Program-made: the position numbers and the translations under genes | Part shown: piece after piece, positions 2,391 to 54,213 of the stretch | Layout: the number at the start of each line of letters is the position of its first letter | How positions within the stretch are numbered: position 1 is the first letter of the stretch | The notes under the pieces: generated by a model | Database searches by the model: none | What the model was told of the DNA's origin: nothing | What the model saw: the letters and a program-made list of their open reading frames with translations, nothing else | Assembly (NCBI GenBank): GCA_026874595.1 | Contig: CM049306.1 | Span: 18,841,019-18,905,018 of the forward strand | DNA: 64,000 bases | Source of the DNA: Sipunculus nudus | Lineage: Eukaryota > Annelida > Sipuncula > Golfingiida > Sipunculidae | Direction of reading: 5' to 3'

Positions 2391-3654
2391 GTGACAGAGG
2401 ACTGCTTTGTGTTGAGTCTTATAATGAGCCACTGAATTTACCATACTCAGCATTATTTAAGTAGACTTTTTACATTTGACTGAAGTAAACTGTTATTCAA
2501 GAACAAAATAGATGTACCAGATGATTTGTCAACTGACAGAGGAGCAAAGAGGAATGTTCTTTTATTACATATTTTCTAAAATGCAAAGCTGATTTATGTA
2601 TACTCCATAAAAAGTACTTAAATCTTAACAATAGACTCGTTTCTATAATATTTATGCAGGGGTATGTTCTGCAGTGTCTACATACATTGGCAACAATGTC
2701 AACAAGGTCAGCCAGTACCAAGCTGGTTTTATGTCATTATAACAGACTTTTCTAAACATTCTGTGTACTGAATAGGATTTTTTGCTGAGAAATCAAGTTT
2801 TCCCATGAGTCCTATTACTATTTTAACTTTCCCTGCTCTGGTGGGAAACTTTCTTTATGTGAGCTGCAGTCCTTGTAGACTTTGTCTTTTAAACTAGAAA
2901 TCTTCATTTTAAGGAATGCAAGCCTCCATAATGAGGTGGTGTCCAAAATGTGGGACCCTCCAAAAATCATGTTTGCGTTCACTTATTCCACTCTTATTCC
3001 CAGGTTTAACGGACCTTTTCTAAGAGCATGCGCACTGCATTTAACTGTCGTTTGCTGGGTTTGGGTCCTTTAAGCCAGCATCGCAGATCTTTCAAATGAA
3101 AGCAGATACATGCAACAGATGCCAACAGCAACCCAATCTCTAATGATAGGACAGGATTCTTTTGCTTTTATCATTTAAGATTTAGCAATTTGTCTCTTTT
3201 TCACTGAATAAGCTGTGATATCCACGTTTTTCTAACCTATTTTTATAAAAGCTCCAAGGCATTCTTTTAACTTATAAATGTCAGATATATGATTGGGCCC
3301 TTTTAAATTCTGAAAAGTAAGCTGCAATGAAAGAAAAAGCAAAGAATGAAATAGGAATGGAACATTTTCCTTTCTGTACCAGGCCTTAAGTCCCTGTTTC
3401 TTGTTAGTGCCTTGCTATTGAAATTTCAGCAGCTCCAAACTGGGTTACAAAACTTTATATGTGAGGCACAACATTACACCATTTAACTGCCCAAGCAGAA
3501 AAAATTCTAACTATAAGGACTGTATATAAAAAAAAAATATTATTGATTTGTTGAAGGGGTTATAGTTTATAATATAAAAGAAAGAGTTTTCAAGCATAAA
3601 ATCTCTGCCTGGAAAATATTAAATTTCATGACCATAGGGTCCATCAACATCATG
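2391..3654. other. Unassigned AT-rich sequence, probably HDAC6 intron
   Basis: No exon, repeat family or RNA gene recognised. Minus-strand frames at 2,497-2,721 have no convincing splice context or homology. Confidence 0.5.
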
Positions 3655-5047
3655 TAATCCCCGCCCCCCCCCCCCCCCCATTCCCTCCCTGTGAATGGTG
3701 GTTTTGTTAGTAAACAGACCGCCGAGAGCCTCAGGTCTGGCCTGAGAGCAAGAACACCAACCGCCGGTCCGGGACCAGGACAGGGTCAGCTGCTGTAATA
3801 GAAACAGGAGAGCCGGAGACCGGCTGGAAACAGGAACAGGAGTCGAACCCGGATGCTCCGGAACAACAGGAGACGCTGAAAAGGTGAAACAGGGTGCCGG
3901 TCGGAACGGGAACCGGAACCAGGAACAGCAGTGAACCCGGACGCACAGGAACAGCAGGGGAAATTGAAAAGTGGAAACAGGGAGACGGTCGGATGGAGAA
4001 CTGTAACGGCCTGAACCAGGAACAGGAGCCGAACCCAGAAGTACTGGAACAAGAGGGGACGCTGAAAAGAAGAAGCAAAGAGCCGGCTAGACCGGGTGAT
4101 CGGAACATCCCGGAACGTAAAGCCGGCGAGGAGCCGGAGGCCACAGAGCTCTTCTGGAATGAAAAAGGGACGGACGTAGATGAATCGTCTAAGCCCGACA
4201 TGTTAATAAAAACAGTTAAACGGAGTAAACTGGGGACCTGTTCGGGTGACCAACGTCACTCGAAGTCCACTGTTTACAGGATAAGGTAATAAGGATTATA
4301 CGGCGGAACAATAGGTGACCGCAAGTCATATGGGTGCGGTAACCGAGGAAGGTACATCCCCCCCCCCCCCCCCCACCACACAAGGACACCGAGGACAACC
4401 GGTGAAATAGGTTAAGTCCGAGAACAATGGAACAAAGACCATTGATGAATGAGCAAGCTTGACATGGAGAAAACGGGTCCGTGGAACCATAACAAGCGGG
4501 AATTGGGAGTAAAAGGAACACAGCGGGGTGAGTCCCAAAAGGAATAAGAGACACAGGTGGGGGAATAAGTGGGACTCTCAGTGGCGGGGAGGGGAAAAGA
4601 ATCACAACTCACAGTTCAGTTGGCAAACCCCCCCATTCCCCTCCCTGTGAATGGTGGTTTTGTTAGTAAACGGATGTGAGCTTTTCTGTATTAATAAGAA
4701 TATTCTCTGTTAGTATTCACACGCCAGAAGCTCCACTTACAAAATTTTCCCTGAGTAGGCCTATCATCGCCCACTTTCGCCTCATTCTCGGTATCTAGGT
4801 CATGCCTCGCTTTGGTAGAGCCACATTATTCTAGGGCGAAGTAGGAAGTATCAGGGGAGGGACAGATGATTGTAATACAGAAAAGCTCACATCCGTTTAC
4901 TAACAAAACCACCATTCACGGGAAGGGGAATGGGGGGTTTTATTACGTAAACATCAATGTGAGCGTTTTCTGTATTAATGAGAAGAAACAGATAAACCAT
5001 AGGGAGGGAGATACTGACCTGGAACGACGAGGATGAAGAAAATACGG

Positions 5048-13300: not shown

Positions 13301-16300
13301 GTTGTTTGGTTTGATTTGCTTTGATGTTGAAGACGCCCGAGATTAAACGAACCTCGAGGTGGCACGATACTTGTAACTACAGAGCGAGCACATGGTTGAT
13401 ACTCAGCAGATCAGTCTGAGATTTACTGAGCAAAACTAATTAATTTATATCAAACAGCCTGCTACAAGAAAGTGGCTAGTTTACAGTTAGATATTGCATG
13501 GTGAAATCAGGGACGCACGGATAATCGGCAGCCATTTAATCATTATGACCCCGCGGTTGGGCGAATAATATGCAGCTTCGCAACGTGTGAATGATCAACC
13601 GTAAAATATAGTGACAGGAAGTTTACCGCTTCACCCTTGCTGTGTTTTTATCCTATGAGCACATCACACCATGACATGAACACCTACACGCATTAAGGTA
13701 ACAACTGGGAATTGCTCAATCCTTTGTGTTCAAGTCCCGCGAACAACAGTAACGGTGGCCTTGATGTTGTTCGGGGCGAGTGATCAGTGTCCTCCGGAGA
13801 TGGCGTATCATGTCCGTATTTGTCAGGTTCATTAACTCTAAGAATGTTAGTTTGAGATGACTGCTGTCCATTGTCTGCAGTAGTTAGGTGTCCGCCTTAT
13901 ACATAACATATAGGCAACTTTGGAGGGACTTAACTATATTGTCCGTTATAGCCAGTTGTCCGCCTAAGTGAGGTGTCCGTTAGACCAGTTTTCACTGTAT
14001 GTATGATCAGTGCAATATTTCATTCAAAAAGGTGTCATACTAAGTGGATTAACAATTGTCAGGTTCATATGCACCATTTCTGGAATTGTTGCATATATTT
14101 CTTTTCTTCCTACCAGCACACAAAATACCACATATTTCATCTTGACTGGGAAAAATGCCTGACTGTTTCTGATTTTTGGTCACTGAATCTGTAGTACAAT
14201 TTATTTTACTTTTACATTGCGTTGACAGTGTATACACAGATACCTACCAGCGGGTCTCCCTGTGCAGCATCAAATCCAGCTGACACAAGGACAAGCTCTG
14301 GATCGTACTGAAATAATATAGTAATATTAAATTTTAATTGGCTGACTGACAAAAAACATGAAACAAGTACCTATCTGCCAATTGACTGTTGACAACTCTT
14401 ATTTAACAGTTTCATTCCATTATATATGATCATCTTAAAAATGTTTCACCAGCATTATTATTACCATCATTATATTGTGAATATTTATTTTACATTTTGA
14501 TAAAAAACACGTATATCAAAATGATCAAAAACATGTATATCAAAATTAGTTAGGCAGATATGGAGTTAACATTCAAAGGTACTGTTTGACAAACTCTTTA
14601 CCTAATTAACAGAGCAATATTATTAAAGTATTACAAAATAACTTTGGTAATTAATGTTATTAGGGCAAAGTCTCTTGTTTCGTTGACCCCACTGCTTTCA
14701 GTAGATCATGAAAATGACTCAACATTTTACAGTATAAGTGTCGATAAAATAGAAAAGCACTGAAAATTTAGAAATATCTAGAATTTTATGTATCACAGTA
14801 AAACAATCACCTCATAAGCTATTGGCATAACCACATGATGGAATGCTGCAATGTATTCATCATTACCCATCGGCACCTGATATATGGAAAAAAAATAATC
14901 AATGATTTTTTATTTTACAATATAAATATATGACAAAAACTGGTGGAACATTCACATTTCTATTGGCATTGGCACATGTATCACAGATCAAAATGAACGA
15001 CCAGAGAAATCACTCAAATGCTTTTTACACACAATTACACAATATTATCCTTTCATTCATGATGAATGTCTCAGGATTGCTTTGAAATATAATGATAACC
15101 TGGTTTTCTATTTTATTAAGGCTCATTGCAAAAGTGTTTTTTCTGACCTGGAGGCCTTGCACAGTGCTGACATCTGGTGACAACATACAGAACTACTTGT
15201 CAGGAATACTGGTTTCCATTTGTCTGTATTTCTAAACTAGAATACAGGTAGTCGACAGGCGACTACTTATATCCGCCTAAATCAGAGTGGAACGGGTGAA
15301 GTGTTGCATATAAGCATGGATGTCTGCAGCCAAATTGTGTATGTAGGTTGCGCTACCTACCAAAAAATCCAGAAAGCTCTATACACATGCAAAACTTTGG
15401 CCCAATCGGTCAAACGGTTCCCAAGATATGAGCTTGGATATCTGCTGCATAAACTAGAATGCAGGTGGCGCCACCTGTCATAAAATCAAGAGAGCTGTCG
15501 GGGATGTATAAACTTGCAAAATTTTAGGCAGATATGTCAAACCACTGCCGAGATATGAGTGATTTTATCCCATGGCAGACAAACAGATGGGAGCTGTGCA
15601 AACATAGCTGCAGGTGGCGCCACCAGTTTTGCGTATGATAAAGAGCTATGTGAGATTTATACACATGCAAAATTTTGGCCCAATCGGTCAAACGGTTCCC
15701 TAGATATGAGCTTGGATGTCTGCAGCGTAAACTTGATTGTAGGTGGCGCCACCTGTCATAAAATCAGAAAAGCTATCCAGGATGTATAAGCATGCCGAAT
15801 TTCAGGTTAATTAGTCAAACCACTGCAGAAATAGGAGTGATTTTAACCCAAGGCAGACGAACAGATGGACACTGTGCAAACATGGTTGCAGGTGGTGCCA
15901 CCATTTTCGGTGTATGTTATAAAGCTCTCCAAGGGCTACATTTGTGCAAAAAAATTTTCCTGATCGGTCAAACGTTTCCTGAGATATGAGCTTGGATGTC
16001 TGCAGCGTAAACGTGAATGTAGGTGGCGCCACCTGTCATAAAATCAGAAAAGCTATCCAGGATGTATACGCATGCCAAATTTCAGGTGAATTAGTCAAGT
16101 CACTGCAGAGATATGAGTGATTTTAACCCAAGGCAGACAAACAGATGGACACTGTGCAAACATGGTTGCAGGTAGCGCCACCATTTTTGGTGTATGTTAT
16201 AAAGCTCTCCAAGGGCTACATTTGTGCAAAAGAATTTTCCTGATCGGTCAAATGGTTCCCGAGATATGAGCTTTGATGTCTGCAGCGTAAACGTGAATGT

Positions 16301-19300
16301 AGGTGGCGCCACCTGTCATAAAATCTGAAAAGCTATCCAGGATGTTTACGCATGCCCAATTTCAGGTGAATTAGTCAAGTCACTGCAGAGATATGAGTGA
16401 TTTTAACCCAAGGCAGACGAACAGATGGACACTGTGCAAACATGGTTGCAGGTGGCGCCACCATTTTTGGTGTATGTTATAAAGCTCTCCGAGGGCTACA
16501 TTTGTGCAAAAAAATTTTCCTGATCGGTCAAACGGTTCCCGAGATATATGGGTTTATGTGTGGAAACAGACGCACAAACGGACGCAGAGCGCAAAGGAAA
16601 GGTCAGAGGTCAAAACAAAATCGGGGCGCAGCAGTTCACATGTGACCCGAACATAATCCCGGGTTTCGGAAAATTCCGCCCAGCGGTTACGGAGGAGTTC
16701 TCCGGACACCTACGCGTCGGTGGCGGCGGCGGCGGCGGCCAGCTGAAAACATAGTATCCGCAAAACTCTGTTTTGGCGGATACAATTAAGAGTACACTTC
16801 TCATTCTGGGGATCGACTGTTGTATTTTGAGATTGTTTCTTTGTAACTCTTCTAACTGTGAACCATGAGGTAAAACTGGGCTGGCCTCTTTGATTTTTTA
16901 TGAATTAAGTTACAGGATCCTCTTATTTCAGAGTCAATCTACACAAAAACACTTCATAATAGACATCACATTAAGATCAAGCTGCATGGCAATTCAAAGT
17001 CAAGATTTTGTAACCCTCTATCTGCATCACATGACCTGTGGTCAAGTAACTGATGCCTAATATGTTCTTTCTCACATTTTTAACCAAACAGAGCACATGC
17101 AGATTTAAATAGACCTTGGAATTTATTATTACCTAATTGCCACTCCATGGGTGCTGACATTCAGTCCCTAACTTGACCCTGACATACATGACACACTCAT
17201 AATGGAAATGAAGGTTAATTATCCCTGTCCCATTTCATGGCATTTTGACACTGGATCCTTCAACCTTGACCGTGACCTACTTAATATGACTGACGTTTAT
17301 GTTAGCCACTACTTACCCTCTCATCAAACAGAATGTTGACATTGAACCCTTAAATTAAGACTTTCCTTTGACCTTGACCTACTTTATCATGATGGACATG
17401 AAGGTCAACAATCACCTTCCCTGTCACTTCATGGAATCTTGACCTGGAGACCTTCCTTTGACCTTTACCTTCTTTATTATTTTAGATATGAATGTTAACC
17501 ATCACTTACCCTGCCACTCCATGGAATGTTGACATTGAAGCCTTCACCTTGACCTTGACCTACTTTATCATGATCTGCATCTGTGTGGCAAGGATAAAAG
17601 AACCCACTGTCATAGCGATGTAAAGATATATTCAGCACACTGTAACAGAGAAAAGGCAAGAAATTAGAAAATATAAATACACAATATCTGACACCATTTT
17701 CTGGAAAATGTTTATCAGTGTTTTTTTGTTTAGTCTTTTCAACATGTACAAGTGAGACTGATCAATGAAATATGATTAACATGGCAAAATTAAAGACAGT
17801 TGACTTCAAAATGTTCAGAATCATAACATGTAATTACGTTACAACAATGAAGCCTCAGTTCAAACTCATACTATTAATTTCAAAAAGACAAAACTTCAGG
17901 TGGAAATGATCACACAGATAAAATAATAATAATAAAAAACTGATCTCCAGAAATTCTGTCACATTATATTCATTGTAAAACAAAAAAAAATAACTAATAT
18001 ACAAATTTAAAGTAAATTATAACTTCTGAATCATACACTGTAGTTAAAACAACATGTGCCTTATTTAAATCTGAATAATGACACAAAGATATATACACCA
18101 GAAGTATGACAAATAACTCTTGCGACCAGGAGTGCTGCTGAAATTTACCTATCTGCACGAGCTTATTAATAAGTTAAACAAGAGCACCGCAAAAATGCAT
18201 AATACACCAGTTGTGTATCTGGTGACCTCTGACCTCATTAAATATGCATGAATTTTGATGAGAATGTAATTCAGATGAGAAATTGTTGGTAAATATGTAT
18301 AATGAGTTTCATGTAAATCAATAGGATTTTTGTAAGTCACCAAGGTGCCTCAAAAGTGTGGTGACCCCTGACCTTATTTAATATGTGTGAATTTTGATGA
18401 GAATGTCAATCAGGTGAGAAAGTCTACTGGTAAATATGTATAAGTTTCATGTAAATCCATAGGATTTTTGTAAGTCATCAAGGTACCTCCAAGGTGCTGT
18501 GACCTCTGACCTCATTAAATATGCCTGAATTTTTATGAGAATGTAAATCAGGTGAGAAAGTCTATTGGTAAATATGTATAATGAGTTTCATGAAAATCCA
18601 TAGGATTTTTGGTAAGACACGAAGGTGCCTCCAAAGTTTGGTGACCTCTGACCTGATAAATATGCATGGATTTTGCTGGAATTCAAACATTAGTGAGATA
18701 TTTTATTGATTAACATTACTGATGAAATTTATCAAAAAAACCTTTTATATTCTTCATAATTTATCGTGGTGACACCACAAAGTAGCCAAGTGACCCGTGA
18801 CCTTATTAAATATGCATGGACATTGCCCATAATTGAACTTGGGTGAGATTATCTGTTGGTAAGTACTTATATGGTGAGTTTTGTGAAAATTCCTCAAAGC
18901 CCTAGTAAGTTATGACAGTAACACTAAAAGTTAACAGACGGATGGTCAGATGGAAGGACAAACAGAATGTGGGTATACCATAATACTGCCGTCATTAGCC
19001 AGGTGAATAAAAAGCTTCTGATACTAGGACGCTAACCCTGCATGAATGATAGTGTTCAAAGTTGGTGCCATAGAATGATTAATTAACCTATGTTATTGCA
19101 AGGAACTTCTGAAAATATTTTGAAAAACACCAATGACATCATAGTATTGTTGTCCGAGACATGAAATGCAATAAACAACCAACCCCCCCCCCTCCCATTA
19201 TATAAATTGGTTTTCAGACACCTTTCAGGGAAATGGGACATGGACGGACATCATTGTCCTCTGCACATCATGACTCGCACTCAAAAGATGCTCATATCTT

Positions 19301-20161: not shown

Positions 20162-23100
20162 GCGTAGGTGTTCGGAGAACTCCTCCGTAACCGCTGGGCG
20201 GAATTTTCCGAAACCCGGGATTATGTTCAGGTCACATGTGAACTGCTGCGCCCAGATTTTGTTTTGACCTCTGACCTTTCCTTTGCGCTCTGTGTCTGTT
20301 TGTGCGTCTGTTTCCACACATAAACCCACATATCTCGGGAACCGTTTGACCGATCAGGAAAATTTTTTTGCACAAATGTAGCCCTCGGAGAGCTTTATAA
20401 CATACACCAAAAACGGTGGCGCCACCTGCAACCATGTTTGCACAGTGTTCAACTGTTCGTCTGCCTTGGGTTAAAATCACTCATATCTCTGCAGTGACTA
20501 GACTAATTCACCTGAAATTGGGCATGCGTATACATCCTGGATAGCTTTTCTGATTTTATGACAGGTGGCGCCACCTACATTCACGTTTACGCTGCAGACA
20601 TCCAAGCTCATATCTTGGGAACCGTTTGACCGATCAGGAAAATTCTTTTGCACAAATGTAGCCCTTGGAGAGCTTTATAACATACACCAAAAATGGTGGC
20701 GTTACCTGCAACCATGTTTGCAGTGTCCATCTGTTTGTCTGCCTTTGGTTAAAATCACTCATATCTCTGCAGTGACTTGACTAATTCACCTGAAATTTGG
20801 CATGCGAATACATCCTGGATAGCTTTTCTGATTTTATGACAGGTGGCGCCACCTACATTCACGTTTACGCTGCAGACATCCAAGCTCATATCTTGGGAAC
20901 CGTTTGACCGATCAGGAAAATCTTTTTGCACAAATGTAGCCCTTGGAGAGCTTTATAACATACACCGAAAATGGTGGCACCACCTGCAACCATGTTTGCA
21001 CAGTGTCCATCTGTTCGTCTGCCTTGGGTTAAAATCACTCATATCTCTGCAGTGGTTTGACTAATTCACCTGAAATTCGGCATGCTTATACATCCTGGAT
21101 AGCTTTTCTGATTTTATGACAGGTGGCGCCACCTACATTCAAGTTTACGCTGCAGACATCCAAGCTCATATCTAGGGAACCCTTTGACCGATTGGGCCAA
21201 AATTTTGCATGTGTATAAATCTCACATAGCTCTCTATCATATGCAAAACTGGTGGCGCCACCTGCAGCCATGTTTGCACAGCTCCCATCTGTTTGTCTGC
21301 CATGGGATAAAATCACTCATATCTCGGCAGTTATTTGACATATCTGCCTAAAATTTTGCGAGTTTATACATCCCCGACAGCTCTCTTGATTTATGACAGG
21401 TGGCGCCACCTGCATTCTAGTTTATGCAGCAGATATCCAAGCTCATATCTTGGGAACCGTTTGACCGATTGGGCCAAAGTTTTGCATGTGTATAGAGCTT
21501 TCTGGATTTTTTCGTAGGTAGCGCAACCTACATACACAATTTGGCTGCAGACATCCATGCTAATATGCAACACTTCACCCGTTCCACTCTGATTTAGGCG
21601 GATACAAGTAGTCGCTTGTCGACTACCCGTATTCTAGTTAAATACTGAATTATTTTGCAACAATTATCAAGCAGGATATCAAAATATGGGTATAGTTCAT
21701 GACTGTTCACCTGTGGGGTGTCTGATTCACAAAAGTTTCATTTTGCTTCAATTTCCCTTTCTTGAAAATCACAAATTTGAAACCCCTGCAAACATAAGGC
21801 CTACCACATTATCTCTAATATCAGGTGTATCCAGGGATATATCATATACCGTAAAATCTCCACTTAAAACCGCACTTCCGATTGAAACCGCACCCAGACT
21901 TTGCCGAAATTCCAGGCGAGACATCGCGAGGGGCTCAAATACTAAGAACCCCCCTTTAAAACCGCACCAACTTTCGCTACGGAATGATTTGACAAAAGAC
22001 ACAATCAAGCTATCATCTAGAAATGAACACGCGTAGGTTGCGACTCGGCCATTCCTGTCCACCTTTTAATTCCTTGGGCATTTAATTTAAACACATCATA
22101 ACACTTTTTTGCAGGGTCACTCAAGCACGGAGTTTGGGAAGACGTAAGGGCCGGTGAACCTCTGCCTGTTTATACAGATTTTATATTTCGTGCCGTATTC
22201 TTGTTTGCTACTGATTTGTCATTATATTTTGAAGAAAAAAAATTCTGCTGATCCATTTCAAGTCACTGTATATTTTAATTCAAAAAATGTTTTATGAAAA
22301 TTCCATTTTTCTGGAATTACTCGGAAGATTCAAATCATTTTCATACCGGTTACTTCGGTATTATCATCGTCACATCGTACGTTTACATCGCTCCATGTCA
22401 CAACTAAATATCAAAGTATATGAAGTTACCTTGTAGAGATACGCACGTATAGGAAACATGACGCTTGATAACGAGTGATTTTAAGGTAAAATTAAAGTGG
22501 CCAGTCGGGGTAAGCAAGTTTTTTTCTTGAAGAAAGTTTCCGTGTGAGGAGCCATTTTGTCAAGGCAGTGTTCACGCAAGGCACGCTAGGACGAAATAGG
22601 TGGCTGTTCTGTTTACCACCCACCGCGTTCAGCCGTTCAAAATATTCTTAGCAGAATACCGGGGCATTTTAGCACATGGCGGCACTCAACCTTGATTTTA
22701 AAACGATCGTCAGCCATTGTGTGACTCCTTACGATGTCAGCTTTTTATTCATTTTACGTTTTAAACAAATAATCATTGCTAAATAATGCTGCAAATGGGT
22801 TTAAAGTAGGCTTTTATTTCAATTTTGCTTGACCATGCCCAACGAGGTGGGCCGCTGTGTGTTACAGCAGGGTTGTTGTTTGTCGTGGTCACGAGTTGAC
22901 ATTCCTTTCACAAGTTACATCCATACAACGTCGTGGACGAGTGGACCAGTAATGTATCTGCAGGCACCCGCTCAAACTAGGTGGGGAATGACCGAATACA
23001 AGTCTTATTTTTTGCACAAAATAAACAAGGTCAAATATGGCTTTAATAAATTTCATAAAACACACTACTTGAGTGTGTACTTCGAAACTCACGTGAATCC

Positions 23101-26100
23101 TCGATCATTGTACACATAGACGGAGGACCCGTGTATGGGGAGTTAGCACAATAAGTGACACGATAATATGCTAGACATGTCATGTATGCTAGGTATTTAT
23201 CGTATATACTGCGTTATATGAAGATGTTTTTTAGCCGCCAAAATGTCATATACCATTTGGTCTTTCCTTCGCAGTAAATTATCCAGTCTGAACGGTTAAG
23301 AATTTTCGGGTTTTCCTTTCATTATGCGCGACCCTGGTTTGGGGTCGCGCTGCAGATACTTTCCGCTACGTAGCGTGCATGACTGAGTCGGGGCCCGTCT
23401 CAATCATGGTACAAGACAAGGTTGTTGTAAACGTATTATTTGGTGACAAATACCAAAATTTTATAACAAGTTATATATCACACGAAAACTAATCAGCAAT
23501 ATTTAATTTATAAATAACAAATAATCGTAAATAATACATTTACACACGGCTCCCATGCATGCGAGACTGCTGCTAAGAACGGCCTTCGAAAGTTGCAATA
23601 TTATCGCCCACTCGCCGGCCCCAAAACGATGTCTGTCAGGAAGATATTCAGGAAACCCTTCTAGTATAAACCGCACAGTACTTTCAGGAAATCAACCTGA
23701 TTTCAAGATTTTGAATTTCTTGATTAAACCGCGGTTTTAAGTGGAGATTTTACGGTAACATATTCTGATAAGACTCTGTGATAAGCTAACGCCTGTGACA
23801 AGCAAACATACTAATATTTGGTTGGCTGGAAAGTTTTCATAACCATCACCATTATCACAGATTAAATAAAAAAATTTTCATCAATGATGCCTAATATGTT
23901 TACACTAGTAATACCTTTTCAAGCCATATTTCTTCTGAGCATATCTGGCTGCCACGGCTACACTGTTAAAGAAACAGAAACCTCTGGCTGTATGCATCTC
24001 TGCATGGTGTCCTGGTGGCCTGCACAGAATATTCATAAACATTAAATAATATGTTAAATACAATTAAATTGAGTAACATACACAATATATTTCTAAATGT
24101 AATGATAAAATTATCTTTTTAATGTCTCTCTTACAAATAGAACACACACTTGATAAAGATAAAAGTGATATCTACATGGTGCAAGAAAACATCGCTATTT
24201 TTTTCTATTGCTGCAGTGTAAAATTAAATAATATGAACATTTACAACTTACAGAATATGAGAAATATAACAATACATGGTATCCCTCATGATCAATATTG
24301 TGAGACACAATTTTAACTGCAAATTGCCAAATCTTCCTGTAAATAGTGACCTTTCAAAGTTATGTCTGACTACACCTGGTTTGACCTCTGATATACATGA
24401 CTATAGTTGGTTTGACCTTTGACATACCTGACTATACCTAGTTTGACCGTAGACATATCTGATTTCACCTGGTTTGACCTTTGACATATCTGACGACCTT
24501 TGACATATCTGACACCATGCTGGTTTTAACTTTGACATACCTGACTAAAGCTGGTTTAATCTGACATACCTGACTACAGATGGTTTCATCTTTGACATAC
24601 CTGACTACAGCTGGTTTCATCTTTGACATACCTGACTACAGCTGGTTTCATCTTTGACATACCTGACTACAACTGGTTTGACTTTTGACATACCTGACTA
24701 TAGCTGGTTTAATCTTTGACATGCCTGACTACAGATGGTTTCATTTTTGACATACCTGACTACAGATGGGTTTCATCTTTGACATACCTGAATACTACTG
24801 GTTTGATCACTGAAATATCTGACTACAGTTGGTTTCAACTTTAATATACCTGCCTACAGCTGGTTTTATCTCTGACATACCTGAATACAGCTGGTTTCAT
24901 CTTTGACATTCCTGACTACATTTGGTTTGACCTTTGACATACCTGACTACTGCTGGTTTGATCATTGACATACCTGACTACAGTTGGTTCGAACTTTGAT
25001 AGACCTGAGTACAGCTGGTTTTATCTTTAACATACCTGACTATGGCTACTCCATTCTGAGAATTTCCTGATAACACATCATCTACCACACACAATGTACA
25101 GCCACATGCCAGGCTGGCAGACTCAAAGGCATGCTGCAAACAAAGAAAGAAACATTAGTCAAACAGCTGGCAGAATCAAAGGCATGCTGTAAACAGAGAA
25201 AGAAACGTTAATCATACAGCTGGCAGCCTCAAAGGCATGCTGCAAACAGAAAATGAAACATTAACAACACAGCTGTCAGCTTCAAAAGGCATGCTGTAAA
25301 CAGAAAATGAAACATTAACAAGACAGCCGTCAATACCAAAGGCGTGCTGTAAACAGAAAATGAAACATAAACAAGACAGCTATCAACATCAAAGGCATGC
25401 TATAAACAGAAAATGAAACATTAATCACACAGAATTAAGAAACAGAATTTCAATTAAGAAAATTGAAATTACAATGCAATTGAACAATATACAAGACAAA
25501 TTTTACATCCAGAAATTGACCCTAGCTATTTCAACAATTTCAAAAAAAGGTTTAACAATATAGATCCAACGCTAAAAATATATTGCTGAAATCTGAATAT
25601 TTGTCTCCTATAACTAAGGTAAGTTTCAGTTTAACTGTAAACACAGGCATCTGAATTAAAGATGAAAAATTATATTTATAGCTCATTCCCAATCAGGGTG
25701 CCAATTCTAATCTGGAGATTATTCTTTAAAACTTAAAACTGATTGCACAATTTGACACAAAAGTGAATATGGGACTAAACGCTTAATATGAGTTGAAAAA
25801 CCAACAGTTTTATTCACAGTCTTCCGGTTCTTCTTGAGCTTGTCGCTTTGATTGCCAGCCTCATTTTTAAAGTTCCATTTATTAGTTTTTTTTTTGTGGT
25901 TTTACTGTTTTTTCAACAACTGTTTCTTCATATATTTTCTCACATATTTATTTCATTTAAAATAAACATGAGTAATTTTAAAGGAAAAGTTTTAGTTTCA
26001 TTCTGATAAATCTACTGTATGCTTTATTTCATTATTACAGCTTAACAATTGGACTTCAACAGTCAATTTAGGAGAATATCACTAAATTTCACTGGGCACC

Positions 26101-29100
26101 ACCATATGGAACAGACTATATATCTGAAGAGCAGCCTGACCTCACTGACAAAGATAGAATCCATGTCTCTCTCCATCAGAGACAGCTCTTCATCTTCCTG
26201 ACCTGACCAGCTCTTGGCATATTCTAGATAGCTCTGTCTGAAACACAGTTTACAACATGTAAAATTCACTTTGTAATCACACAGAAACATGTTTTACAAT
26301 ATGTAAAATTCACATTGTTCTCACACAGAAACATGTTTTACAATATGTGTAATTCTCATTATTCTACCACAGAACCATGTTATACAATATTTAAAATTCA
26401 CATTATTCTCATAGAGAAACATGTTTTACAATATGAAAAATTCACATTATTCTCACACAGAAACATGTTTTACAATATGTAAAATTTGTGTTATTCTAAC
26501 ACAGAAAAATGGTCTACAATATGAAAAATTCACATTATTCTCACACAGAAACATGGTTTACAAAATGTAAAATTTGAAGAGGTACAACAGTTCTGGAACA
26601 GTACAAAGAATCTGACCAACTAGAGGGAGTGTCGGATGTTTAAAATTTTGAGCTGGATGCACAATGTGATACATTGGTCTAAAACAATTCTTCCAAAAGC
26701 CTTGAATAATTCTACATACCCATGTACAAGCAGCAGTTCTTCATCTGTGACCAGTCTTGGCTACAAGAACAGAAATAAAACAAATTATAATATGCATATT
26801 ATCTGTAATGTGACCTAAGGTTTGGTTGAACTAACACAAGTACCTTCAAAAGCGAGAAAAAATCTGTTATCTTAGGAAAAAAAGTTGCATGTTCAAAAGA
26901 TATTTAATTTGTAATTAAACATCAATTTTTATAATTATTTAAAACAAAATTTATCTGCCTTTCATCTGATCTTGTTAGTGAATATTTATACATGTATGTA
27001 CTATTATTTAATATGCCTGTATGTTATATTTAGACAAGGTTACAATAATATATGAAGCATGTTACCATAAAGAACAAAATGTAACTATGTATGGTCTCAT
27101 CCACAGGAATAGAACTTTACTAAGAACGAAGCTATAGCATATAATACTGGTATCATTTGCAATGTTTACATCCAATGAGTCAGTATTGGTTATGATAAAC
27201 ATATGCAATCTCAGACAGGAATCTCACAGTGAAAGATAGAATTTTTATTTTTATTATTTAGGCAATAGGAAACTTATAATGATATTTTTGTCAACATAGC
27301 GAACTTAATCAACCAGTGTCAGATTACCAGGGAGACAGGAAAGGTCAATTACAAAGTCTTATATTCAAATGTCTTGTACAGTTAATGTTTTTCCACAAAG
27401 TGAAGATTTTGTCTGGTTATCTGTAAGATCTAATAAGTCCAGCTTACCTCTAATACTTTACATCTCTCCACCAGACCAAGTGTCTTGTGTTTTTCATATA
27501 TCCTTTTTATTCTCTCAGGTCTCTCTGGATGGTCCCTGGATGAAAACAGAAAATTACTTATTTAAATTGAAAAATATAAGTCTAACAATGTATTAACACT
27601 GTTGCAGTTACAGGATAATGCGAGGTGTAATATTTTAACAGAATCAATTAATATACAGGATCACAAACTGCCAAAATAATCTTCTTGAAAACATTTTGCC
27701 TATCCAAAGAAAATTTTTCTGTTGACAAGAAATCTTGAAGATATTTTTTCTTGGTTTTTGGCAGCATGCTGATGTCAAGAGAATTTATCTAGATTTTCTT
27801 TGTCTCGTCACAAGATGCTTTATTCCGATTCGCTCAGCTGCTCTCCATCATGTGATGTTACCCTATAAATGATTACTGTAAAACAAATGTAAAAATTCTT
27901 ACCGATTATTTCGTATTTTATGTCGCATCATGCGCTCATCGTAAACTAGGCATGTCCTGAAATTGTAAATTACATTGTTTAATATAACAGTTTTGATGGT
28001 GAAATACCATAGTTGCAGGTTAATTGATTAATTGATTACCAATGAATAAATTATAATCATATACAAATTTTACTATTTTATTCATTCAAAGAAGCAGGAA
28101 CAGTTTATCATTTAGTGGTCATTATGAGCCACTGAAAATTTGTCAGCTGATAAACCTTACATGGTCAAAATGTTGTTTCTCACACTGACATTCTGTGTTT
28201 TATGTTTATATATTACATATTTATATTTACCTTGTTACAGTTTATTAAACATTTACAGTTACAGTTTGTTAACCTTTACTGAATACTACAGTAAATATTG
28301 AAAGCAACTGATCTCAGTTTACTGAATATAAAGATACTGTTGATTTTCTTATAAAGAAAACCTCTGAACTTCAGAATCTTGAGAATACCTGTTTGGTGGT
28401 TTGGATAGATCTACCTCTCTCTTCAGCTGCTCTATCATTGCAATGACCTGGTCTTTATCTTTTACATACAGATGATAATCTCCATAAATTTCAAACTTTT
28501 CTGGACGGTTTTCTGGAGTTGCAAACACTACATTCCTGAAAAGAATATAAAGGAAGAGGACTAAATGTCTGACATTTAGTACACAGTAACTGCTGAGCTA
28601 TGCTTGTGGTTGATATATCCCCCATTTTTCCCACAAGGCAGGACCTAAATAAACAAGAACCTGGAAATAATATCCATGTCTAACATCTATATGCTACACT
28701 TATATCCATATACTTGTGTCTAGGAGAATAATATCCTCTGCCAGGAGGGTATGCATTCATCCCTGTTCGTCTGTGTATTTATGTTTGTGTGTGTGTGTTG
28801 TTCAATACACAACTCTAGCAATCATGAAAAGAATCTCATGAAATTTTCAGGGCATTTTGGGAATGGGCCAATGAAGGATTGATTAGATTTGGATCCGGCA
28901 CATGATCTGGATTCTGGAACATCATCAAGGAATATTCACAAATATGCAGTTACTTATGCACAAATGAACCTGGGAATAGAGGTTTGAACAAGTGAATGCA
29001 AACAGTTTTGGGAGCAAATCACAACAGGGACCTAGGCTCCCTGCATGGCAGAGGCTTGCATTCCTTAGAATGCAGATTTCTAGTTTATCTATATAACCTA

Positions 29101-35000: not shown

Positions 35001-38000
35001 AGAAGCAGTACCCACAGGCCTCCTTATGGGTGGCATGGTGACCAGGAGGTCTGAAAATAAATTAAACTACAAGGAATAAGGACAAGCAGGATCTGTATTC
35101 ATACATACAGTGAAACCTGTGTTATGAGACCACCCAGGGGACTGGCCAAAAGTGGTCTTAATTTATAGGTGGTCTTATAAGACAGGTCAGTTACGAGTAA
35201 TGTGAATTCTGTCACTAATCGGTGCTCTTTCAGACAGGTTCTACTGGAGGCCCCCACTTGTGCCTTATGAATTGGTTAGAATTGCTGTCCATTAATCATA
35301 TTCTATATATCCTATTTGAAAGGATCTTTTTAGTACCCCTTTAACCATTTGTATGGGCCTAAAAATTCTCATTTTAATTTGGGGAAAAACAAACTAATAA
35401 TATTTAGAAAATAGAATACGGGTAGTCGACAAGCGACTACGTGTATCCGCCTAAATCAGAGTGGAACGGGTGAAGTGAGGCATGGATTGAGTGGCAAGGG
35501 GAAATAAAGTGTTGCATATTAGCATGGATGTCTGCAGCCAAATGGTGTATGTAGGTTGCCCCCCCTACCACAAAATCCAGAAAGCCGTCCAAGTTGTATA
35601 CATATGCAAAATTTAAGGCAGATAAGTCAATCCACTACATGTATATGAGTGATTTTAGCCCGTGGCAGACAAACAGATGGACGCTGAGCAAAAATGGTTG
35701 CAGGTGACGCCACCAGTTTTGCGTATGATAAAGAGCTATGTGAGAACTATACACATGCAAAACTTTGGCCCAATCGGTCAAACGGTTCCCAAGATATGAG
35801 CTTGGATGTCTGCTGCATAAACTAGAATGCAGGTGGCGCCACCTGTCATAAAATCAAGAGAGCTGTCGGGGATGTATAAACCTGCAAAATTTTAGGCAGA
35901 TATGTCAAACCACTGCCGAGATATGAGTGATTTTATCCCATGGCAGACAAACAGACAGGAGCTGTGAAAAAATGGTTGCAGGTGGGGCCACCAGTTTTGC
36001 GTATGATAAAGAGCTATGTGAGATCTATACACATGCAAAATTTTGGCCAAATCGGTCAAACGGTTCCCGAGATATGAGCTTGGATGTCTGCAGCATAAAC
36101 GTGAATGTAGGTGGCGCCACCTGTCATAAAATCAGAAAAGCTATCCAAGATGTATACGCATGCCGAATTTCAGGTGAATAAGTCAAGTCACTGCAGAGAT
36201 ATGAGTGATTTTAACCCAAGGCAGACGAACAGATGGACACTGTGCAAACATGGTTGCAGGTGGCGTCACCATTTTTTGTGTATGTTATAAAGCTCTCCAA
36301 GGGCTACATTTGTGCAAAAAATTTTCCTGATCGGTCAAACGGTTCCTGAGATATGAGCTTGGATGTCTGCAGCGTAAACGTGAATGTAGGTGGCGCCACC
36401 TGTCATAAAATCAGAAAAGCTATCCAGGATGTTTACGCATGCCGAATTTCAGGTGAATAAGTCAAGTCACTGCAGAGATATGAGTGATTTTAACCCAAGG
36501 CAGACGAACAGATGGACACTGTGCAAACATGGTTGCAGGTGGCGCCACCATTTTTTGTGTATGTTATAAAGCTCTCCAAGGGCTACATTTGTGCAAAAAA
36601 TATTTTCCTGATCGGTCAAACGGTTCCCGAGATATGTGGGTTTATGTGTGGAAACAGACGCACAAACGGACGCAGAGCGCAGAGGAAAGGTCAGAGGTCA
36701 AAACAAAATCGGGGCGCAGCAGTTCACATGTGACCCGAACATAATCCCGGGTTTCGTAAAATTCCGCCGCGCGGTTACGGAGGAGTTCTCCAGACACCTA
36801 CGCGGCGGCCGCGGCGGCGTGCAGCTGAAAACATAGTATCCGCAGAACTCTGTTTTGGCGGATACAATGAACTGATCTTTTCTAATCAGGACATTAAACT
36901 ATTTGTTGAAGACCTCACCTGATGATGGCCATCCCATTTCTGACCTGCAATGTAAAAATATTATCAATCAAATATATAATCTTGACATAAACCAGTTTGA
37001 AAGAAATATACATATAAAGGGAAAGACTTCAGTAAATGAAACTCTTTTTTTCTTATTACTGTTCAATTCTGTTTATTACATATTTGTTATGAAATAAAGC
37101 AACCATATATCACATTAAAGTTGCATTAACTTTACTTCTCAATAAAGAAGCAATTAATATGACTTTGGTAATGAATCAGTGGCGGATCCAGGAGGAGGGT
37201 CCAGGGGGTCTGGACACCCCCCCCCCCCCCTTTTTTAGCCGCCACAACCTTTTTTAAAGGTTTCAGACCAAATTTTGCAGCTGGACCTGGACCCATCCCT
37301 CCCCCTTTCAAGACCTAGATACTTATTCTAAGCATTATCATTAGTCCTCGTTTCGTCGGACCTCTCCTTTTCCTAAATCCTGGATCCGCCCCTGTGAATA
37401 TAACTATTTACAGATTAATTTAATGAACAGTCCATTATGAAGCAGTCTACTGACCAAAAATGCCATCTTTACCTCAGGGTTACCACATAAGATATCAAAG
37501 TAACAGTACTTACCAACATTGTTCCACTTAGTTAAAGTAGATTATAGTTAACATTTTGCTTAAGTAATTTTAAACTAATGACCAACATCCTTACTTTGCC
37601 TTCAGCCACCTGCTTCACCAGATCCACAGTGCTGCCTACAGCCAGCCTTGCAGCTTCACTGGTCTTCTGTAAGAGGCAGAAGTTGAGATATTAAAGATCA
37701 TGTACAGTTCTCAGGAACAAATACATCATTGTCAGACATGTGGTTATAACACACCATAACTCCTGCCTGGAAGTGAAACAGCTGAACTTGCTTCAATGTG
37801 AAAAAAATAATTTTTGGAAAAAATATACAACATTCAGATTTTTTAAAATTTAGGCCAAATTATTCTATTTTGAAAAAAAATATTCTCACATGTGGGCCAA
37901 AACTGAATGGACCAGTGAACTACAAATTTACATCACTATACAAGTTGTTGATCAAGAAAGGATGTGAGGATATAAATAGCAACAGAAAAGGCACTACACA

Positions 38001-47413: not shown

Positions 47414-48865
47414 CTAAGAACTACCAAAAGCTAATATAAAAAGGTAAGTTTTAAGATTTCTTTTAAAAGAAGCACTGATTGAGTGCGGAAGTTCATTCCA
47501 CAACCTTGGTGCCACAGCTGAGAAAGCTCTCGAACGACACGTCTCACTTTGTGCTTTAGGAATCACTAAAAGCCCTTGGTCTGATGACCTAAGCTGCCTG
47601 ACTGGAACATAAAAAGTTAAAGAGGTTCCTAATGTAAATAGGCGATTGACCATTTATGGCTTTGTATACTAATAATAATATTTTAAAATCAATGCACTGT
47701 CGCACCGGGAGCCAATGGAGTTCTTTAAGCATAGGTGTAATGTGGTCGCGCTTCTTGGCACCAGTTACAAGCCTAGCAGCTGCATTCTGCACTCTCTGAA
47801 GCCGGTCCAGTAACTTGCTAGGAAGACCACATAGCAAAGAGTTGGAACAGTCAATCCTTGAACTGATGAACGCATGAATTAATGTTATTTGTGAATCTTG
47901 AGTTAGGAAACCCTTTATCCTAGCTATATTACGCAGGTGGTAAAAAGCCAAACTACAAATATTATTTACATGCTTATCAAGGCAAAGCCCTTGGTCAAAA
48001 ACAACCCCCAGGTTCCTAGCACAGTTTGTTGGCACAACTACAGAGTCAAATATGTTAAGAGTTTTCAACTGAATTTTGACCTTTGCTGGTTTGTACCGAT
48101 AATCAGAACCTCAGTTTTATCAGCATTGAGTTTAAGCAGATTCTGACACATCCAAACACCTATGTCATGCAAGCATGTTTCAAAGGTAGAAATAGGAACC
48201 TTTGATTCTGGTTTAAATGATACATAAATTTGACTGTCATCAGCATTAAAATGATAATCCATTCCATGCTGTCGTACTAATTCACCAAGTGGTAATGTGT
48301 AAATTGTAAAAAACAGAGGCCCCAGCACAGAACCTTGTGGAACACAGTAGGTGATCTCAGTTGGAGAAGACTTATGACCTGCAACACTGATACACTGACT
48401 TCGATTGCACAGGTATGACCTGATCCATTGCAAGGCATCTCCACTTATTCCAAGCCTGGTGGACAACCGTTGTAACAGGAGCTGATGATCCACTACATCA
48501 AAGGCAGCAGATAAATCCAATAGTATGAGAATGGATACTTGTTGGGAGTCCATAGCCCAGAGAAGATCGTTATATACTTTGAGCAGGCATGTTTCAGTGC
48601 TATGAAAAGGTCTATATGCAGACTGTTGGTCTTCATACAAATGGTTTTCCTTCATGTATGAAGTGATATGAGTGGCAACAATCTTTTCTAACACTTTAGT
48701 AAGGAACGAAAGGTTAGATATTGGCCGATAGTGCTTCAAATTATGTGCATCAAGACTGCTTTTCTTCAGTATGGGGGTTACAATAGCCGATTTCAAAGAT
48801 GCTGGAACTTCACAATTGTAAAAAGACATATGACACAATTGACAAACAAGGGACCTATGGGTCAC
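47414..48865 (-). pseudogene. LINE reverse transcriptase and C-terminal domain
   Basis: Reading leftwards: KHYRPISNLSFLTKVLEKIV, then LILLDLSAAFDVVDHQLLLQ, then VPQGSVLGPLFFTIYTLPLG. The catalytic motif is FNADDSQIY where Y/F-ADD is expected, so Asn replaces the aromatic residue before ADD. The C-terminal block LQRVQNAAARLVTGAKKRDH with LKELHWLPV is typical of CR1/L2 elements. Frame changes near 48,065 and 47,600 break the ORF. Confidence 0.9.
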
Positions 48866-51477
48866 GACGCTCAGCTGTTATTTATGATAAAAAAATATTA
48901 TTTAGAAATGAGGCACATGCTGGTTTTGTGTGGTAATAAATATAAGCTGTATTATGAATTGTTGTTGTTTAGCTTATGTATGATTTTGATAGTACCTTTG
49001 GAGACAGGGAAGAGGATTGATTTCATTTATTTTATTAACAAATGGAGTACTACTGTCACACAGATTTTGACTTGGCCATATAACTTATAAGCAGAACATA
49101 TAATATAAGAGTTTAACTATTTATTAAAAAAATTACAAATATTGTCCCAAATATAATTTTTATTAAAAAAAATAAGAGAATCATATGATTTTTTAAAATG
49201 AAATATAATTGATATGATTATTGAAATAATATTAAAGAATATATTCATGAATGCATTCATGAATACATTTTGAAAGTATTTGCACGAGTATTCATATACT
49301 TTCATTTTTACCTAAATTCCCATTCTTTATGCAAGAAATTTTATAATGGAGTACATAATCATATTCGTATTTAAATACAATTACAAAGTATTCGCACCAT
49401 GTCTGGTATTTATTCAGTTTTCACCAAACAATGATGTTGAGAATCCAGAATATACAAAATTCACACATTTAAATAATGATCATAAGTACCTGGTTTTATG
49501 GCTTTTATTTATATTAAAAAATAACTGTAAAAAATTCATTTTGGCCTAATTTCACATCAATGTACACACTAGACACAGTAGGAATCTAGATTAATATTAT
49601 CAACTGCATCTTTGTCTATCATTAATTTCCTTCATATAATCCTTAATGATTAGTAATGAATAATATGATTTACTTCTTTATCATTAAAAATGAACTGAAA
49701 AATGCCATAAGTGACTGCATGGTGTTATTTGGAATATGTGACATTCTACCCATCGATACAAGATTCTTATATCATCAGTAATTGCAAGTTAATTTGTTGT
49801 TATTATAAACTAACAAATTCCTTTTCTATTTTTCTTTAATTTGTTATTAAAAACCAATAAAAATTTATTAATTTATTGTTTATTGTTATGTTGTTGGTTA
49901 AAACTACTAGATGAGTTGGGTTGAACACCTGGATCAACTGTGGCTGGCCATCAGCTGCCTGGATTCTCCCCTCAAGCGTGCATAATTTGATGAAAGGTCA
50001 ACAAGGTCAACATACAGGTGACTCAAGAGGGGCTGGAGAGAGCCAAAGTCTGACAGGGTCTCATAAAAAACATTAATAAAAGCTACAATATTTGGCAAAT
50101 TTCTTTCAGCTTTCTAAACTAAAAATCTGAAATCCTTATGTGTGCATGATATGAAAATTATATCAACAGTGCTCTTGGGAAACAAACGTGCCATGGTCAC
50201 AGTTGGGCAAAATTTAAGGTACTAATTTTATATTTATACTAATAACTTATAAAATTTGAAAAATTCAGAACTATTTTGGGTATTCAATTGAATCTTGATT
50301 AAATAATGTTACATCCCTGACAAAAAAGATCTCTAGCTTCAGCAATGCCCTTGTTAAGGGAGTAAATATATTTCTTGATTTTTTACAAAGTGCATTATGT
50401 TTGGGCCCATAACTTAAAAAAAATACACAATACTGACATCATTTCTGGCATGTGCATAGTGAATGTATAGAAAAATATGTATATTATATATAATCAAAGT
50501 CAGATCAGTGGTTTTGATATTAGGCAGTCTTAAAGTGTAACATTGGTTTTTAATGGAAAAATGAAGTTTTTCATTTATATCTCGAAGGAATTAAGTTCTA
50601 GTGACCAAATTCTTGGCATGGTAGGGGATTTTGGAGAAATCTAACTGTATGCCAAATTTAAGGAACCTAGAGCTGAAGCTCGGGAGCTGAGCTCTAGCAA
50701 ACTGCATAACACTAGCAATATGTGACATGGTGCTTGAAAACTTGAATAAAATCTACAGTTTTTGATCAACTGGTTTCAAATTTTTGGTGTTAACAGTTGA
50801 AATGCTAACAAAAACATGCTGTGAAAATTAAATCCACACCAGTTACAGCAAAAAAACGTGCCATGGTCAAATTTGGGCAAAATTTAAGGTACCAATTTTT
50901 TATTTTTGCTAATATTTTTAAAAATTTCAAAGATTTTGATCTAATTTTGGGTATACAATTTAATTTTGATTAATAAAAGTAATATTACTGGAAAAAAAGG
51001 GCTTAGCTTTAACAAGTTTTGTGTTAAGTGATAAAATTTCTTTCCTGATTATTTAAAAAATGCATTATGTTTGGGCCCATAACTTTTTTAAATTAAATAA
51101 TACAGACCTAATTTCTGGCATGTACATAGGAATTATATAGAGGATTATTTATAGGAAATATGAGGAAAAACAGATGAGTGGTTTTGATATTAGGCAGTCC
51201 TAAAGTGTGAAAATAGGTTTTAAATAAAAAATTGAGGTTTTTCCTTAATTTCTCAAAGGAATGAAGTCGCAAAGACCCAGTTTTCGGCTTGGTAGGAGAT
51301 CTTGGGGACATCTAACATTATGCTGAATTTTGGATTCCTAGGTCTTACGGTTTCAAAACGTGCCACATCTACGGACGGACAGACGGACGGACGGACAGAC
51401 GGACGGACAGACGGACGGACGACGGACAATGGACCTCGACTATAGCTCAGATGACTTATAGTCAGCTGAGCTAAAAA
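48848..51477 (+). mobile_element. P3 family element nested in the LINE
   Basis: Left end AAGGGACCTATGGGTCAC, right end with a hairpin at 51,443-51,473 (TAGCTCAG...CTGAGCTA) followed by AAAA. The core holds direct repeats about 668 bp apart (ACGTGCCATGGTCA at 50,186 and 50,854). A GACGGACA-type microsatellite lies at 51,372-51,426. No coding capacity. It interrupts LINE coding sequence between VFIPI and the CQLCHMSFYNCEVP segment. Confidence 0.8.
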
Positions 51478-52383: not shown

Positions 52384-53577
52384 TCAGCAAGTAGCAGAAA
52401 CCACAGCAGAAGACGACGTCTGCAGGCAGGTAGCGGGCCGAACGGGAGTAGACGTCGTGGAAGCTGCGCTGGTGACGTTAACGATAGTGCCTGCGGCAAC
52501 CACAGGACCCATGGCATATAGGCCGGAGTCTTGCTGGCGGACGTCCTTGAGGTAAAATTGAGTAAACGTGGAAGGGGACTTCCAGATACCCATTTTGACC
52601 AGCGCGGCAGGAGACACGCCCGATAGGTGAGCGAAGGATGAGGCGATAGCCCTGACCTCATGAGCCGTGACATGGAAGGACTGTAGTTCAGCCGGATGTA
52701 AAGAGTCATGGGCGGCGATGATAGCAGCCTTTATCCAGTTACTGATAGTAATAGGACTTATTTCTTTATCGGCTGCACCCAATTTTGAAGAAATAGAAAG
52801 TTTCTTAGGGCCCCCCCCCCCCCCCCCCCCGGAGAGATTTTGTAGCCTTAAGATAGTATCTTAAGGCCCGGACGGGGCAATTCGTGGCGCCGAACCGGTA
52901 CCGGCCATTAGGCAGGGCAGGAACGTGCCATGAAATTGCGGGGTCATCGTAAGACTGTGATTTTCGATAAAAGTCCGGAGGAAAGTGAAAGACTGCGGAT
53001 GAACTGTCAGCCGCAATTTGAGAAAATTTAGGATCGGCCATGAGAGCATGAAGCTCAGCACGTCGGCCAGCAGTGGCGAGCGCCAGGAGGAACGCCGTCT
53101 TACGCGACAGATGGAGCAGGTGCGCGGAGCAGAGCGGCTCATAAGGAGAGCTGCGGAGGTGCCGGAGTACCACGTCAAGGCGCCAAGAAGGAACTACGTA
53201 CCGGGGTGGGTCGAAAGAGTACGGACCTCCTGGAGAAAATCGGAAACGACGGGATGACGGAGAACCGAATCCCTACGGAGGGGGCGAAGCACGGAAAGAA
53301 GAGCTGCCCGATAGCCGCGAATACTGGGGAAAGATAAACGTTTATCCTGTAATAAATGCAGGAGGAAATCAAGGAGCGACTGGACCGACAGTAAGAACGC
53401 GCTCAGAGGGTACGACCAAGCAGCCCGAGGACGGAGCGGCAGATCGACCAACAGCAGCAGGAGAATGGGCGGAGAGACGAGAAATGAACGACATCGAGGA
53501 AACCACGGAGCCACTGGATGAAACGGGACGATCAGGATGAGGTCCGTGAGAGGAGCCGCCGAGAGACGTAGGAGCAA
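52384..53577 (-). pseudogene. Tyrosine recombinase of DIRS copy A2
   Basis: The N-terminal domain contains LLDFLLHLLQDKRLSF. The catalytic domain contains ALATAGRRAELHALMAD (first Arg), then after a G20 tract VTAHEVRAIASSFAHLSGV and [17 protein letters not shown] (HxxR, W, Y). The homopolymer at 52,811-52,830 shifts the frame. Enzymes of this class integrate the circular DNA form without making target duplications. Confidence 0.9.
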
Positions 53578-53607
53578 CCGCGGGATCAGGGTCGGCGCCG
53601 GGAACCC

Positions 53608-54135
53608 CTACAAGAACCGGCCGGTCCAGGCGGACGGGGGCAAGTCCGGGAGAAGGACGCGAGGGCGACGTAGCCGTGGACGGGACGGAACGAGGGGCGG
53701 AGAGTTCGGGAAATCGAACAGGTCGAAATCCGGAGTCCCCCAAGCGTCGAAGATCCCCTGGAGAACCGGCGGAGGAAGAGAAACGGCTGTAAGGGTACCG
53801 AGGCGATCCCGGGAAAGGGCGTCTGCAAGGACGTTCACGGCGCCGTGGACATGACGAGCCTGAAGTGTAATACCAAGAGGGATACACAGATCGAACAGCC
53901 GATAAGTTTCCCGCAGCAGCGAGGGTGACCGAGTGCCGCCCTGCCTGTTGATATATGCAAGAACCGTCGTGTTGTCTGTCATGACGAGAACATGGCTGTC
54001 GAGGAAGCATAGAGACCAGCGTTCGAGCGCACGATGGACCACTCTGAGTTCCAGAACATTGATATGGAGCAGACGCTCCCGAGGAGACCAGAGGCCGGAA
54101 ATACGAAGATCGGCCAGGTGGGCACCCCAGCCCAA
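53608..54135 (-). pseudogene. RNase H region of DIRS copy A2
   Basis: GWGAHLADLRISGLWS, then HINVLELRVVHRAL, then LVMTDNTTVLAYINRQGGTR and HGAVNVLADALSRDR: the D-E-D-D order of RNase H in DIRS elements. The open frame is 175 codons. Confidence 0.9.
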
Positions 54136-54213
54136 CTGAGACGCGTCGGTAAAGATCGCAAAGGCGACGGTCTGCGTGAACAGAAAGCGACGAAGGAGAT
54201 AAGACAGCCGGAG

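Follow-up and report, generated by a model that had tools for sequence, protein, structure and literature searches.

The HDAC6 locus

The window, that is, the whole stretch of 64,000 nucleotides of Sipunculus nudus DNA that was analysed, carries an HDAC6 gene on its minus strand. The peptide encoded by the joined exons U and V matches the PF00850 (Hist_deacetyl) family with an E value of 7.1e-22, HDAC6 ranks first among the PDB matches of this peptide, and exons B, C, U and V, when joined, form a single open HDAC6-like frame. The exon U peptide ends in NGVAIVR and the next exon (24019-23915) carries PPGHH, which bears out the initial annotation in placing exon U immediately ahead of the PPGHH active-site exon of deacetylase domain 2. 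In the case of exon C, the automatic choice of start was 26233, and 26237 was set by hand to keep the frame. The exons and arrays of interest are as follows:

17358..17574, minus strand: 90-bp donor array of exon W, 2.4 copies (TRF)
17510..17639, minus strand: exon W, domain 2 (family search, splice sites)
23915..24019, minus strand: active-site exon V (PPGHH), joined to exon U (family match, splice sites, open frame)
24366-25042, minus strand: 31-bp donor array of exon U, period 31, 22.2 copies, 78% matches (TRF)
25036..25133, minus strand: exon U, HDAC6 deacetylase domain 2, 98 nt (Pfam, PDB matches, splice sites, open frame)
25113..25424, minus strand: 53-bp acceptor array of exon U, 5.9 copies, six acceptors (TRF)
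26141..26237, minus strand: exon C, upstream of exon U and joined to it in frame (splice sites, open frame)
26249..26574, minus strand: 44-bp array, 7.4 copies, adjoining the exon C acceptor (TRF)

Domain 1 of the same gene includes a micro-exon of 26 nt (36944-36919, encoding VRNGMAIIR), which corresponds, in domain 2, to a portion of the 98-nt exon U.

Arrays derived from splice junctions of HDAC6

The donor array of exon U begins approximately 12 nt within the exon, and these 12 exonic nucleotides (AGCCATAGTCAG) are common to the first unit and to the best copy, confirming both that a 31-bp array of some 22 units starts inside exon U and that its unit derives from the exon U donor. The sequence CAGGTATGT occurs 13 times on the minus strand between 25038 and 24430, representing the real donor, where the intron opens at 25035, and 12 decoys, in agreement with the earlier count of about a dozen units that keep the donor word. 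Over the whole window, the minus strand has 14 occurrences of CAGGTATG, compared with a single one on the plus strand. The donor GT is kept in 15 of the 21 decoys; the dinucleotides of the 31-bp unit are intact in 8 to 21 of the 21, and many match the figure for GT. The donor 9-mer is the best-conserved 9-base window of the unit (rank 1/31), a rank that is not counted as evidence of selection because the units were anchored on that very motif. The aligner recovered decoys in 16 of the 21 units, 13 of them with GT, and by a crude weight matrix 11 of these 13 match or surpass the real exon U donor in strength. A search with the stretch 24345-25500, in which very common words were skipped, returned a single match in the genome, namely itself, and an origin of the donor array from a dispersed repeat or transposon was rejected on this ground.

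On its acceptor side, exon U is flanked by a second array, with decoy exon starts at 25399, 25346, 25293, 25239 and 25186 in addition to the real start at 25133. Each of the six acceptors is pyrimidine-rich and precedes a copied exon start, which reads CATGCCTTTGA or nearly so; AG is kept in all five decoys. A third array spans the donor of exon W, where degenerate copies can be followed by eye to approximately 17130 and each unit holds at least 36 nt of coding sequence. The exonic portion of the unit thus amounts to 12 nt in the exon U donor array, 21 nt in the exon U acceptor array, and 36 nt in the exon W donor array. The initial annotation described the first of these correctly but was incomplete, as the exon U acceptor array and the exon W donor array were missed. 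The 44-bp array at 26249-26574 stops about 10 nt ahead of the exon C acceptor, and its score fell short of that for a junction-spanning array.

Altogether, 3 of 34 HDAC6 junctions have copies by the junction test described below. The first HDAC6 exon (39150-39101), in domain 1, was excluded from the test on account of poor splice scores; among the domain-1 junctions that were tested, the equivalent donor ahead of PPGHH included, not one came up to the threshold, and the HDAC6 arrays are therefore probably younger than the domain duplication.

Consequences of decoy use for the reading frame

When the six acceptors of exon U are combined with its 16 GT-bearing donors, only one of the 96 pairs, the expected one, keeps the B-C-U-V frame without a stop. 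Use of the nearest decoy donor would shift the frame, and the other 14 lie past a stop codon at 24980. The prediction that use of a later donor breaks the frame was correct, and a translatable cassette of alternative 5' splice sites was rejected, since all 15 decoy donors that retain GT fail to yield an open product. In 12 arrays taken together, the frame survives at 5 of the 101 decoys that were aligned, the aligner totals being lower bounds (at least 101 decoys, of which at least 100 were scored). Intronic extensions are likely to meet stops by chance alone; read from the sequence, the 1/96 result is a measure of what mis-splicing would cost, not of whether it occurs. No intron gain between the copies was found at exon U, the predicted coding frame passing straight from 25036 to 24019 without any additional exon.

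Frequency of junction copies at other genes

The frequency of such arrays was estimated from exons of kinesin and myosin motor domains, plus three histone deacetylase exons, all collected by family search and blind to repeats. The first sample comprised 20 regions (13 kinesin, 6 myosin and 1 histone deacetylase), in which 87 of the 88 exon matches could be placed and the test covered 145 out of 174 possible junctions, whereas the second comprised 60 single-exon regions (40 kinesin and 20 myosin), in which 97 of 120 junctions were tested. Junctions were left out where no acceptable splice site lay near the end of the match or, in the first sample, where too little intron was available. At each junction, a 55-bp window across the exon edge was compared with the adjacent intron, and a score of 20 or more was taken as positive.

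Three of the 145 junctions of sample 1 (L099, L095 and L098) and six of the 97 of sample 2 (L115, L133, L136, L144, L146 and L159) are positive, giving 9/242 tested junctions with copies, or 3.7% (95% interval 1.7-6.9%). All nine belong to kinesin or myosin exons, six at acceptors and three at donors, and the units of the nine arrays include 8-49 exonic nucleotides. Two of them are borderline (L115 and L133, with scores of 21 and 22) and a third, L098, consists of a single duplication, leaving six plain ladders. For instance, L144 has 21 decoy acceptors at a spacing of about 31 bp, L159 has 19 decoy donors at 36 bp that make 20 sites with the real one, and L099 has six decoy acceptors, with a copy of myosin coding sequence behind each. 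At the kinesin acceptor of L136 (position 710 of the gene-oriented locus), the units are 71-72 bp long and four of eight decoy acceptors are in frame, making this array a candidate, as judged from its sequence, for protein variation that depends on repeat length. The proportion at HDAC6 (3/34) is higher than in the samples (9/242), but not significantly so (p 0.17), and HDAC6 was not randomly chosen.

Two controls were applied to the HDAC6 and sample-1 junctions. Neither the 537 introns shuffled in two-base blocks nor the 179 inverted introns yielded a single case at or above the similarity threshold, the copies being direct only. The exon U donor array is thus real, chance being excluded by the shuffled and inverted introns.

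Comparison with the intron interior

The same comparison was made with windows displaced from the junctions into the intron, with the following numbers of windows having copies:

Junction: sample 1, 3/145; sample 2, 6/97
60 bp: sample 1, 4/141; sample 2, 8/97; both samples without HDAC6, 12/238; HDAC6, 4/34
100 bp: sample 1, 4/141; sample 2, 8/97; both samples, 12/238; HDAC6, 4/32
150 bp: sample 1, 8/138; sample 2, 9/97; both samples, 17/235; HDAC6, 4/30
200 bp: sample 1, 11/129; sample 2, 8/97; both samples, 19/226; HDAC6, 4/30
300 bp: sample 1, 7/119; sample 2, 8/97; both samples, 15/216; HDAC6, 2/28
400 bp: sample 1, 6/90; HDAC6, 3/24

If anything, junctions have copies slightly less often than the intron interior (uncorrected p 0.049 at 200 bp and 0.11 to 0.51 elsewhere), and a junction-specific mechanism was rejected for now, as the displaced intron windows carry copies at least as often. 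Windows internal to exons have copies in 2 of 276 cases (HDAC6 rows included). A triplet of the donor word gives 808 matches genome-wide, against 448 for the reversed control, these being overlapping matches and not arrays. When arrays were grouped by eye over the first 95.8 Mb of contig C1, the stretch to which this comparison is confined, the donor word and the reversed word each gave six (the exon U array included in the former), and enrichment of the donor word in arrays was rejected. Selection to keep the decoy donors was rejected as well, given that the 15/21 of GT falls within the range of 8 to 21 for dinucleotides of the unit. The alternative 5' splice-site role that had been proposed for the array finds no support in either result, GT being kept no better than many other dinucleotides and junction-spanning arrays being no commoner than those of the intron interior.

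There is thus nothing clear to indicate a junction-specific process or selection on the decoys, and the sequence analysis lends no support to a regulatory role for the exon U ladders. The simplest reading is one of strong minisatellite formation in introns that sometimes takes in the edge of an exon, and is tolerated where the copies lie on the intron side.

Relation to known duplications of splice junctions

Minisatellite-like duplications of exon/intron boundaries, on either the 5' or the 3' side, are reported for the globin genes of amphioxus, following an earlier description of such 'mirages' in amphioxus Adh3 (PMC3087553). As reported there, AG or GT is kept in many but not all copies, and the Adh3 data together with RT-PCR of the globin genes suggest normal splicing despite the mirages (PMC3087553). 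The copy number of the BflGb6 mirage varies between haplotypes (PMC3087553, PMC3902484), and similar repeats are described in amphioxus PGBD5 and troponin C (PMC3902484).

The HDAC6 arrays resemble the mirages of Adh3, BflGb6/BflGb9 and troponin C, as these are described in the parts of the reports drawn on here, in that their units span an exon/intron boundary, in that the splice signal survives in many copies though not in all (15/21 for the donor GT and 5/5 for the acceptor AG), and in that several genes of the genome are affected. They differ from the amphioxus cases, within the same parts of those reports, in the presence of arrays on both sides of one exon, in donor ladders of 13 sites (exon U) and 20 sites (L159), and in the availability of a frequency estimate from a repeat-blind sample. 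By the anatomical definition, the HDAC6 arrays are mirages; the kind itself is known from amphioxus, and what is new here is the double-sided exon and the estimate of frequency. The genome is also unlike that of Branchiostoma, having a size of 1.43 Gb as opposed to about 0.5 Gb, with sampled chromosome-scale contigs of 63.5-110.9 Mb.

Tandem duplication of segments holding splice signals is also described as a route of intron gain, in the potato RdRp gene, in ATP2A1 and in fission yeast genes, with the potato duplicate crossing an intron-exon boundary (PMC4974935). As in those cases, the duplicated segment at HDAC6 holds splice signals, but its copies are confined to an intron that was already present and the coding exon has not changed, with no new intron of the kind outlined in that source. 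In human segmental duplications, internal tandem repeats with units averaging 30 bp in four copies are reported to alter gene structure, some of them at exon-intron boundaries (PMC2812944). Those repeats, as portrayed in the relevant part of that paper, are variable, run through exons and may create introns, unlike the HDAC6 arrays, which are intronic ladders of splice sites. No further reports of such arrays were found in the literature searched, in which subscription journals are thinly covered.

Origin of the arrays and choice of splice site

The exon U arrays are probably junction-derived minisatellites of the 'mirage' type, tolerated as a by-product of tandem duplication while the exon-terminal site is the one used. 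Here, a short segment across the exon/intron boundary would have been duplicated in tandem and then expanded, likely through slippage or unequal exchange, with the 31-bp donor side and the 53-bp acceptor side of exon U arising by separate duplications. The exons were found through conserved domain families, and the exon is therefore regarded as parental, with the intronic copies descending from it. All extra copies are on the intron side, leaving the coding exon and its own splice sites intact.

Homology places the limit of the coding exon at the exon-terminal member of every array, and from homology and frame it is this member that is predicted to be used in the RNA. The spliceosome would thus mostly take the copy at the edge of the exon. 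The probable reason is exon definition, in which the pairing of sites across the 98 nt of exon U would give the shortest exon the advantage, and any mis-spliced RNA with stops would presumably be lost to decay. Across the 12 arrays, 74 of 100 scored decoys equal or exceed the real site in strength by a crude weight matrix, while none of the five decoys of the exon U acceptor array reaches the score of the real acceptor by the same measure. If exon-terminal use holds in the RNA, the choice of site would be made by position rather than by strength. A broader generalization can be offered only tentatively, namely that about 1 in 27 junctions of this genome lies beside its own copies, often in a near-identical ladder, that the exon-terminal site is routinely used despite decoys that are mostly equal or stronger, with position and not strength governing the choice, and that the genome is broadly permissive to splice-site minisatellites.

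The ladders could instead serve a regulated form of unproductive splicing, diverting transcripts to stop-containing exons and lowering HDAC6 to a level set by copy number. Such a role is unlikely, even though most of the GT-bearing decoy donors recovered by the aligner equal the real donor in strength or exceed it and the real pair of acceptor and donor alone stays open, because the decoy GT is absent from 6 of 21 units and is preserved no better than many other dinucleotides, because chance alone predicts stops in intronic extensions, and because the like ladders at unrelated kinesin and myosin junctions, at a rate no higher than the intron background, do not suggest a gene-specific device. 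It is also quite unlikely that the donor array acts as a backup that brings more U1 to the vicinity of the exon, in aid of exon definition or of protection against premature polyadenylation, or that it provides spare donor sites. The 12 decoys identical to the real 9-mer and the presence of junction copies in several genes would fit this idea, but acceptor cases outnumber donor cases in the samples (6 against 3), donor-word arrays are no commoner than reversed-word arrays over the part of C1 compared, and the frame is not restored by the spare donors.

Productive alternative 5' splice sites in 31-nt steps, for which the intact donor words might speak, are scarcely credible when every GT-bearing decoy fails to give an open product. 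The array might also be a false expansion introduced during assembly, given that misassembly is common in tandem arrays and that the BflGb6 mirage of amphioxus was apparently misassembled in the genome draft (PMC3087553). A false expansion is very unlikely at exon U, where the units differ among themselves (78% matches) and have a single matching place in the genome, with arrays of the same kind at other loci; the exact copy number is that of one assembly. The exon U array, then, is real and derived from the donor, and in all likelihood represents a tolerated by-product, of a kind already known.

Other repeats and bacterial sequences

Several further features were observed in the window and in the assembly. 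Four-copy arrays of a related 278-280 bp unit with GGTGGCGCCACC lie in both orientations at 15405-16547, 20329-21469 and 35516-36636 of the window, and are probably a dispersed element with its own internal satellite. A satellite-like array followed by a run of the octamer CGGAATGA is found both at positions 1-1068 of the window (180 bp, 5.6 copies) and at 2961-4582 of locus L094 (359 bp, 4.4 copies), and the two are likely to represent one mobile element with internal repeats. Long minus-strand frames occur at 53194-57155 and 47589-48877 of the window, some of which we take to resemble retroelement reverse transcriptases. On contig C2 (8512621-8513975), tandem units of TGTATTTCTTCATACAGGTAAGTCG have an acceptor fused to a donor, in the manner of repeated recursive-splicing sites.

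Unbroken bacterial-type genes for HDAC-like proteins or cytochrome oxidase were found on contigs C60-C62, C66, C72, C74, C75, C77, C79-C83, C89, C90, C123 and C127, several of them in equal-scoring copies. For an HDAC-like protein from one bacterial-type contig, the best matches among the 80 listed do not exceed 52% (Deltaproteobacteria, SAR324, Nitrospira and others). On C123, the COX1-family match is presumably bacterial, judging by its translation, whereas that on C5 we take to be a nuclear mitochondrial fragment. The contigs with these bacterial-type genes probably derive from bacteria co-assembled with the animal, perhaps symbionts.

Significance

How the spliceosome chooses among equally good sites is an old question, usually posed with artificial minigenes. 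In this genome, the few per cent of junctions that have their own copies, at donors as well as acceptors, represent natural replicates from which a position rule could be read by RNA-seq. The arrays suggest that the phenomenon described in lancelets extends beyond Branchiostoma, and that a mechanism specific to junctions is not needed to account for it. Their main value would lie in providing a genome-scale natural experiment in splice-site choice.
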